This document shows positions 1 to 2,063 of a stretch of DNA of 59,373 bases, one piece after another (position 1 is the first letter of the stretch; every line of letters starts with the position of its first letter). The notes under the pieces are model-generated. The model had not been told where the DNA came from. It searched no databases and worked only from the letters and a program-made list of their open reading frames with translations. The DNA is taken from assembly GCA_945907755.1 (NCBI GenBank), contig CAMDTN010000012.1:1-59373 (forward strand), given 5' to 3'. The position numbers were made by a program, and so were the translations under genes. The DNA comes from Singulisphaera sp. GP187 (GTDB lineage Bacteria > Planctomycetota > GCA-002687715).

Positions 1-407
1 ACATCGCTGGAAGCGGTCGGCGCTGGTACCGCGCTCTCTGTCTGCGTTGTTTCGAGCAGCGCGGCCATGCCTGCTTGCAAGCTGCTGGGGCCGGACGCTA
101 CTTCGACCTTCTGGGTTAGCAGCCCGTCCAGTCTGTCGAACACCATCCGGGCGAAGGCGGCGTTTCCGTTGCGTGCGTGCGCGATGACGGCGGCGGCGAA
201 GGCCTGCGCGTTGCGCGGGTTCTCCTCGAAGATTTTCCGCAGCATGGCGGTAGGGCCGCGAGGACCCTTTTTCCCGCCAGCTGGGTTGCCGCTGTGCCCC
301 CTCTTGAAGTGGTACGGAATCAGCTGCGGCGCGATAACTGCCTTCTTACTGCCTTCCTGTACTGCGTCCCCACCGTTTTCTTCAGCGTCCCGTTCGTGCT
401 TCGCCAT
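1..407 (-). CDS. DUF5681-like protein of an integrated element (partial, runs off left edge)
   Basis: Reading leftward from the ATG at 407 the frame stays open to base 1, giving at least 135 residues with no stop. The N-terminal third carries a glycine/proline/lysine-rich motif (HSGNPAGGKKGPRGP) of the kind that defines DUF5681, a short domain found in phage-like and transposon-like elements, sometimes beside terminase genes. The following helical part is rich in Ala and Arg. It starts 2 nt after the stop codon of the small ORF at 410-649, so the two are probably cotranscribed. Together with the tRNA fragment at 638-684 this places the gene inside the right end of an integrated element whose body lies left of the window. 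The DUF assignment comes from memory of the motif, and the biochemical role is unknown. Confidence 0.6.
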   Translation of the reverse strand, partial: MAKHERDAEENGGDAVQEGSKKAVIAPQLIPYHFKRGHSGNPAGGKKGPRGPTAMLRKIFEENPRNAQAFAAAVIAHARNGNAAFARMVFDRLDGLLTQKVEVASGPSSLQAGMAALLETTQTESAVPAPTASSD

Positions 408-409
408 GC

Positions 410-649
410 TCAGCCTCTCTCCTTGGGGCTTTGGCACCCCGTCGCTGTCACCATGGCAAGGATGCCAACGCGCACCGCTTCGGGCAGGTCCGGCCATGCG
501 GCAACCAGTGCTGCAAGTGCGGGGTCGGAGCGCAGAGCAGTGGTCACTTTTTGCGTTGTGGGGATGGCACTTCTGTTGACCCCTTCCGCGGCTTGCGCGG
601 AAATGGCTGTTTCTGTAGCGTTTTTTCGGGAGGGGCTCCACAATGGCAT
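410..649 (-). CDS. Small element-borne protein, resembling an integrase C-terminal tail
   Basis: A 79-residue ORF whose ATG (649) lies inside the tRNA-Ala fragment. The first residues are therefore translated attachment-site DNA and the start is uncertain; the same frame is open further upstream. Residues 41-70 have the pattern DPALAALVAAWPDLPEAVR followed by a GI..MV helix. I recall this arrangement from short ORFs and C-termini next to tyrosine-type integrases, but could not check it. The stop is 2 nt before the DUF5681-like start. It could be a real small element gene or the remnant of a larger integrase read-through product. The function is unknown. Confidence 0.4.
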   Translation of the reverse strand: MPLWSPSRKNATETAISAQAAEGVNRSAIPTTQKVTTALRSDPALAALVAAWPDLPEAVRVGILAMVTATGCQSPKERG

Positions 650-684
650 TGTGGGGGTCAGGGGTTCAATTCCCCTATCCTCCA
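638..684 (+). repeat. 3' fragment of tRNA-Ala(GGC): probable element attachment site
   Basis: Bases 638-654 form a 5-bp anticodon stem (CCACA/TGTGG) with a 7-base loop holding T33 and anticodon GGC. Bases 655-659 are a 5-base variable loop. Bases 660-676 form a T-arm (AGGGG-TTCAATT-CCCCT). Bases 677-683 are the 3' acceptor strand and A684 is the discriminator. The base at tRNA position 70 is T, as required for the G3:U70 alanine identity pair. No D-arm occurs upstream, although GGAGG at 629-633 could pair with the acceptor strand. No CCA is encoded. This is what is left when an element integrates at a tRNA 3' end and duplicates it. Confidence 0.75.
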
Positions 685-695
685 TCCCGGCAAAA

Positions 696-723
696 GGCCC
701 GCGCGCTGCAAAGCGTGCGGGCC
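696..723 (-). terminator. Terminator-type hairpin after the toroid-protein gene
   Basis: A near-perfect 12-bp inverted repeat (GGCCCGCGCGCT / AGCGTGCGGGCC, loop GCAA) starts 4 nt past the minus-strand stop codon at 727-729. On the minus strand it is followed by TTTTG. It also separates the chromosomal gene from the attachment site. Confidence 0.65.
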
Positions 724-726
724 ATT

Positions 727-1971
727 TCATGCGCCGCTGGTCCAGCGCGGCGGTGGCGGAAGCGTCGGTGCCATCAATCCCCAAATTGCCATGGCGCTGC
801 CGTAACTTTCGGAGCGCAGAAATACTCGGTCGTTCCAACCACCGTCGCTGTCCCGCGTGCGCCAATACAACGCGCGTAGTTTCTGCCGCAACGCCGGACG
901 CGCCGCTTCGGGCAATAACTCGATAGCCTGCGCTGTGTAAGTGTGAGCGTAGTGGAAGTAGTACGGCGCGATCATGTAGGGCGGCACATGAGTGCCTGTT
1001 TGGCAACGGCGCTTTTCCAACCACTCCCAGTGGGTGAAGAAGGCCTCCACTGCAGACTGCACTCGTTCAACGCTGCCACGCCCCGCTAACAGCAGCGTGG
1101 ATTCGCACACCGCCATGCGGGCGCACGCGCCTGCAACATCTTCAAAGCCCTTGCCGGTTTGACGCGCCGGATCTGTGCCGTACTGGAACGCACCACTTTG
1201 CAGCCGCGCGTCCTCCAGAGTCTTTAGCGCTCGCGTCACCACGGCTTTGTCCACCTTCAAGCCGCGCTCCTGCGCAAGAAACAACGCTTGCAGCGTGGGT
1301 GCCGTCATAAATGTGCTTGCGGGCGAAGCCGACTTGCCACCACGGCGCGAGTAATTCCAGCCACCGCTGTCGGCGATCTCTGTGCGTTCCAGAGTCGTCA
1401 CCAATGTTTGTGCCACTTTGCGCACGCGCAGCGCTAACGCGTCATCAAACACCTTCGCATCCAAGCCGCGGAGCAACCATTCCAGCGCATAGCTATGCCC
1501 CCAACCGCGCACGTCGTAGCTGCCGAGAAAGCCCTCGGCCATCAGCGGCTCGTCTTTCAGTTCGCGCAGGATGAACTCCGTTGCCTTCAACACACTGGCG
1601 CGCCGCGCTGCGTCCGCTGCAAACCCGGGGGCTCGCAACAAACCCAAGCAACAGATGGCGCTACCGCCTACGCGGTAGCCCGGCGGGATCTCGCCCGACG
1701 CCACGCGGTACACGCCTTGGTAGGGCCACTCGGCCCCGGCCGTAAACCCGGGAATGCCCGCGTGCGCTGCCTTCTCGGTACGAGCTTTCTGCTCTGCTGC
1801 GCGCTCCGCCTTGAAGTCGTAACTTTCTTGATGGCTCAGCATCAGCGTCACTGCCTGCTGGGCGGCAGCTTCGACCGCCGCATCGCTGATGCTCTCGCTT
1901 GGGGCTACTTGGCTCCACAGCGCGGTGGCCGCGGTCACAGAGAAAAACGCTGCAAGGAGTGCTGCTTTCAT
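727..1971 (-). CDS. Secreted prenyltransferase/squalene-cyclase-like (alpha/alpha toroid) repeat protein
   Basis: A 414-residue protein. I chose the ATG at 1971 because it begins a clear signal peptide (MKAALLAAFFSVTAATALWS); a longer reading frame to 2019 adds a non-hydrophobic leader. The mature part has repeated helical units with GGWNYS (about residue 205) and DGGWND (about residue 375), the Gly-Gly-Trp pattern of prenyltransferase/squalene oxidase repeats. Those repeats build an alpha6/alpha6 barrel. The DxDD catalytic motif of true cyclases is not evident, so it is more likely a secreted toroid-fold protein than a terpene cyclase. It is the first chromosomal gene after the element boundary, is transcribed alone and ends at a strong hairpin. 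The substrate is unknown. Confidence 0.7.
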   Translation of the reverse strand: MKAALLAAFFSVTAATALWSQVAPSESISDAAVEAAAQQAVTLMLSHQESYDFKAERAAEQKARTEKAAHAGIPGFTAGAEWPYQGVYRVASGEIPPGYRVGGSAICCLGLLRAPGFAADAARRASVLKATEFILRELKDEPLMAEGFLGSYDVRGWGHSYALEWLLRGLDAKVFDDALALRVRKVAQTLVTTLERTEIADSGGWNYSRRGGKSASPASTFMTAPTLQALFLAQERGLKVDKAVVTRALKTLEDARLQSGAFQYGTDPARQTGKGFEDVAGACARMAVCESTLLLAGRGSVERVQSAVEAFFTHWEWLEKRRCQTGTHVPPYMIAPYYFHYAHTYTAQAIELLPEAARPALRQKLRALYWRTRDSDGGWNDRVFLRSESYGSAMAIWGLMAPTLPPPPRWTSGA

Positions 1972-2001
1972 GGTGCTGATTGAACCATGCCAGCCTCGTT
2001 G

Positions 2002-2007
2002 GTAGAA
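2002..2007 (+). promoter_or_regulatory. Candidate -10 element for rpmG
   Basis: GGTAGAAAC contains TAGAAA at about 2002-2007, some 57 nt before the rpmG start, and resembles the TAGAAT boxes before prs and the radical SAM gene. No strong -35 box is visible. Confidence 0.3.
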
Positions 2008-2063
2008 ACTGCACCACAAATCGCAGCCGCCTGGATTCCCCGGGAGCTTGCAGGAGAAGCCCC

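Follow-up and report, generated by a model that had tools for sequence, protein, structure and literature searches.

Which process leaves a fragment of a tRNA gene close to the edge of a bacterial contig, and what do the sequences on its two sides belong to? The window, i.e., the whole stretch of 59,373 nucleotides analysed here, comprises all of contig C12 (CAMDTN010000012.1) of Singulisphaera sp. GP187, whose genome is assembled in 94 contigs (2.68 Mb). The original prediction regarded positions 638-684 as the 3' part of a tRNA-Ala(GGC) gene marking the end of an integrated element, with ordinary chromosome on its right.

The tRNA-Ala(GGC) remnant and the empty site

On the plus strand, positions 638-684 are an exact structural match to the anticodon arm, variable loop, T-arm, 3' acceptor strand (677-683, with base 681 providing the T at position 70) and discriminator (A684) of a tRNA, and lack a D-arm; no complete tRNA was called in the window by ARAGORN. 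The basis for naming the remnant is an intact tRNA-Ala(GGC) at C35:1336-1412 on the minus strand of the same genome (ARAGORN), and a copy outside the window is what had been foreseen. Genome-wide, the single further match to the remnant is C35:1301-1385 (minus strand), all 85 bp of which agree with window 638-722. This perfect direct repeat constitutes the attachment core (plus strand; tail-side att site) and extends beyond the tRNA, through its terminator-like hairpin.

The suggestion that GGAGG at 629-633 could still pair with the acceptor holds on paper, where CCTCC at 679-683 is complementary, but a partial fold of the remnant is best read as chance, since 637-410 (minus strand) codes for part of the integrase and a D-arm is missing. 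Such remnants are called as tRNAs by ARAGORN in 5 of 23 sister elements, and these five tail-side calls were rejected because their 5' strands mismatch the acceptor, which further supports chance at the present locus.

To the right of the core, positions 723-2019 (minus strand) represent the original chromosomal flank downstream of the tRNA, including a host gene (ORF 727-2019) that adjoins tRNA-Ala(GGC) in relatives with an empty site. In two other genomes of the genus, this gene and the one located left of the intact tRNA on C35 are neighbours, with slightly more than 200 bases between the matched stretches and one intact tRNA-Ala(GGC) within. Moreover, an artificial join of both host flanks aligns to these relatives through the tRNA and into the right flank. 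The empty sites and the aligning flanks settle the insertion of an element, for which a comparison with relatives lacking it had been proposed. Further to the right, at 2256-2320, short near-identical repeats (about GACACGCGCTCGCGCGTGGT) are found in three copies directly past the gene of an L33-like ribosomal protein.

An integrase gene had also been expected next to one element end, and a tyrosine integrase frame (C35:57-1400, plus strand; PF00589, E 5.6e-18) indeed adjoins the intact tRNA, which it enters from the 3' side. Repeat, integrase and empty sites together confirm that a mobile element has entered the tRNA gene and that the tRNA fragment lies at its far end, and all three are features of classical tRNA-targeting elements. 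On the element side, next to the integrase tail described below, positions 3-404 (minus strand) carry a DUF5681-like gene (25.9 bits vs. a Pfam cut-off of 27.5), which is cut by the contig end. Both C35 and C12 start within the element and its middle (C35:1 to C12:1) is absent from the assembly; we infer that the two contig ends belong physically to one element, and sister elements in complete genomes are whole. The element is probably a prophage or a satellite; a terminase (PF03237), sought as a trace of the missing interior, gave no match in the genome.

The integrase gene and its C-terminal tail

Beyond what had been predicted, comparison of the two contigs at the sequence level indicates that the remnant leads, on its element side, into the 3' end that was cut from the integrase gene. 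The integrase frame is open through the attachment core. In the integrated form it reads the antisense of the tRNA (...GMEDRGIEPLTPTMPLW) and meets a stop four codons later (CSPN*), which falls in host-derived tRNA sequence, giving a protein of 447 residues. In the circular (attP) form, reading would go on without a shift through 637-410 of the window (minus strand; SPSRKNATETAISAQAAEGVNRSAIPTTQKVTTALRSDPALAALVAAWPDLPEAVRVGILAMVTATGCQSPKERG*), to a total of 518 residues. According to this joined frame, positions 410-637 (minus strand, stop codon at 410-412) encode a 75-residue C-terminal tail with a conserved motif at 440-532 (minus strand; RSDPALAALVAAWPDLPEAVRVGILAMVTAT), for which a helical hairpin is predicted in a relative. 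Since the catalytic motifs R, HxxR, H and Y are all located upstream of the core, integration would remove a tail and leave the catalytic domain whole. As the tRNA core sits within the element's own integrase gene, this cut would recur with each insertion.

Integrase, antisense-tRNA peptide and tail are found in one frame at three further loci: L049, a viral contig with a frame of 574 codons, L180 and L145. The frames of L145 and L180 cover the catalytic part and are incomplete in the N-terminal region, L145 with a stop further upstream. L145 is where two tandem elements meet, in an array spaced at 8175 bp that carries an intact tRNA-Ser(UGA) at its far end, and in this tandem pair (L145:8893-18097) the inner, first integrase regains a tail from its neighbour, as expected.

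Could the tail nevertheless be a small gene in its own right, located at the end of the element and not part of the integrase? In the integrated state it does appear as a short open frame, with other genes of the element next to it. Against this stand its in-frame connection to the integrase, the fusions in L049, L145 and L180 and the scarcity of start codons, as an in-frame ATG between core and motif is found in 9 of 54 T-arm-bearing tails (25 of 54 with GTG and TTG). We consider a separate gene extremely improbable.

Tail motif and reading frames in related elements

The helical tail motif follows the consensus AWPxLPEAIRAGIxAMV. Relatives were found in 7 of 59 related genomes, all in short frames, one of which (G007) was not credible on inspection. 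A profile of 31 columns picked up the motif in 120 of the 394 phylum genomes; it is almost always detached, sits for the most part in short open frames and often follows a tRNA fragment. Among named genomes, 76 tail loci were obtained, nearly all titled Planctomycetota or groups within; two are metagenome-assembled genomes titled Actinomycetes and Cyanobacteria. A T-arm motif lies just upstream of 37 of 75 distinct tails, compared with 1 of 75 in an equal downstream control stretch, and the tail motif pinpoints element ends. Pairwise dN/dS values of the tail among close relatives (0.26-0.58; moderate and based on few pairs) argue that it is kept as protein. Long frames (>250 aa) around tails were also considered as fused integrases and were mostly rejected as GC-rich chance frames over host DNA.

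No family model for the tail exists in Pfam, NCBIfam or PHROGs, whose matches cover the catalytic and N-terminal regions only; in sister integrases, a weak PF02899 accompanies PF00589. When viral contigs were searched with the entire attP-form protein, no match was obtained, and the tail alignment did better. Likewise, searches with the L049 integrase against phage and plasmid collections yielded no useful relatives, and Foldseek returned generic tyrosine recombinases only (XerA, lambda Int, Tn1549 Int).

A frame test was run on 38 tail regions, for the most part taken from genomes that are complete or in long contigs. The exact repeat was the sole criterion for assigning an intact downstream tRNA to each tail, and the frame between integrase and tail was checked afterwards. 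Such a repeat (20-67 bp; elements of 2.7-39 kb) was present in 27 regions and was not found in the other 11 within the stretch fetched. An integrase adjoined the tRNA in 26 of the 27 elements, and 25 of these 26 rejoin as one open frame of 486-833 codons including the integrase domain. A chance rate of at most one third gives P = 2e-11 for this count, a value that overstates independence as some elements are related. If the joint is shifted by one or two bases, the frame drops to 64-249 codons. The in-frame elements cover 12 tRNA isotypes (Ala, Arg, Asn, Glu, Gly, Leu, Lys, Met, SeC, Ser, Thr and Val) and both tRNA orientations. Between 60 and 122 residues are lost on integration, and the majority of frames in the integrated state end within 10 codons of the core. 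The repeat-bearing loci failing to rejoin are G251, with a truncated integrase, and G287a, where no integrase was found and the neighbouring frames are transposase-like.

These data also bear on the option of an ordinary tRNA-targeting element, in which the integrase gene happens to end close to attP and the in-frame tail arises as a by-product because antisense-tRNA frames are open. Such frames are indeed often open and the basic att geometry is classical, but the tail forms a conserved motif that is subject to purifying selection, it is in frame in 25 of 26 pairs while wrong-frame joins are short, and it is contiguous with the integrase in the unsplit forms. This option is strongly disfavoured, and we regard it as very unlikely.

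A second survey started from the enzyme and comprised 30 loci picked by similarity to the C35 integrase, irrespective of a tail. In 22 of them the integrase frame enters the adjacent tRNA; among the remaining eight, two stop clearly before the tRNA and one shares about 20 bases with it, and in the other five no tRNA was called at the locus. The closest relative (67% identical; L249 on G001:C4) reads into a tRNA-Gly(CCC). A tail was not found in that genome, where it may have diverged or be unassembled. Among related integrases the target tRNA has apparently been switched often, as tail-bearing elements use many isotypes including tRNA-SeC; L226 (G242:C1:793301-813300) is one example.

Two further loci were noted in the course of this comparison. 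A very small element of 4.9 kb (L073:564-5580 in G044) encodes an AAA_25-domain protein besides the integrase and is possibly a satellite. At G287:C1:1519253-1546684, two near-identical tails lie 27 kb apart with a 53-bp repeat at tRNA-SeC and transposase-like frames in the expected place of the integrase, which is probably a decayed array.

Known systems and the possible role of tail exchange

Integrases that are split by their own integration have been described for archaea. In the SSV-type "suicidal" integrases (SSV1, pTN3, pT26-2), attP with a tRNA-derived core is located inside int, integration splits the gene and the circular form restores it (PMC8371274). The present gene likewise contains attP within its coding frame and is split by integration. 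In contrast to the archaeal enzymes, where the catalytic domain is severed and Int(N) and Int(C) are inactive, the catalytic domain here stays whole and the tail alone is removed; furthermore, the integrase scores PF00589, not PF16795 (Phage_integr_3), and the hosts are bacterial. Despite the split at attP, this element is not a member of the SSV-type class.

A second parallel is the integration-dependent immunity of mycobacteriophage BPs and its relatives, where attP is located within a coding gene and the protein loses a C-terminal segment on integration and is thereby altered (PMC4557955). Loss of a C-terminal segment at an internal attP is shared with the present element, whereas in the phages the repressor is shortened (its long form carries a degradation tag) and here the integrase itself is split. 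Classical tRNA-targeting tyrosine-integrase elements share the core formed by the tRNA 3' half, the intact tRNA at one end and the remnant at the other, but in these elements int terminates outside the core and integration does not alter it. A 2021 review places self-cutting integrases in archaea only, and in the literature searched, which left most subscription journals outside, we found no precedent for a self-splitting integrase in bacteria and only the archaeal and mycobacteriophage parallels.

AlphaFold modelling of L049 (17-row alignment) predicted the catalytic region with confidence; the tRNA-derived peptide falls in a disordered linker (427-534), and the tail has two helices at 539-547 and 553-571 (pLDDT about 85). 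The attachment core is thus predicted to lie within the disordered stretch that connects the catalytic domain to the tail, a position which would explain why many different tRNA-derived peptides are tolerated. In tyrosine recombinases, C-terminal tails are often packed onto adjacent subunits, and a role of the tail in synapsis is plausible for this reason. Both the predicted linker and the intact catalytic domain would also fit a passive nesting, in which attP inside int keeps enzyme and site together in a tolerant region, the tail aids synapsis and its loss has no regulatory consequence. This is conceivable, though we think it rather unlikely: the tail is retained under selection despite its detachment at every integration, which argues that it does something in at least one state.

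An attP inside int and an exchange of the enzyme's C-terminus upon integration are strongly supported by the joined frames. We are highly confident in an integrative element in tRNA-Ala(GGC) with this architecture, in which loss of the tail would restrain re-recombination. Tail exchange could then act as a switch between integration and excision. The free element would produce a tailed integrase, the form that integrates, and integration would leave the tail at the other element end, behind the tRNA remnant. The lysogen would make a tailless integrase ended by the host tRNA, with altered activity, stability or partner choice. Tail loss may bias direction by restraining re-recombination until excision is induced, and excision would rebuild the full gene of integrase and tail.

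Whether this picture applies to the whole phylum, with bacterial self-splitting integrases that are switched by integration from a tailed, integrating to a tailless, lysogenic form as a built-in control of direction, appears to us evenly balanced. Natural proteins and attP sites of such elements have been misread, as integrated copies are annotated without their tails and with a few host-encoded residues at the end. In this context, the planctomycete elements represent a widespread bacterial counterpart of self-splitting integrases with a gentler cut, in which the enzyme core survives and the tail alone is exchanged, and they raise the testable question whether integration reprograms the integrase and whether the tail sets the direction of recombination.
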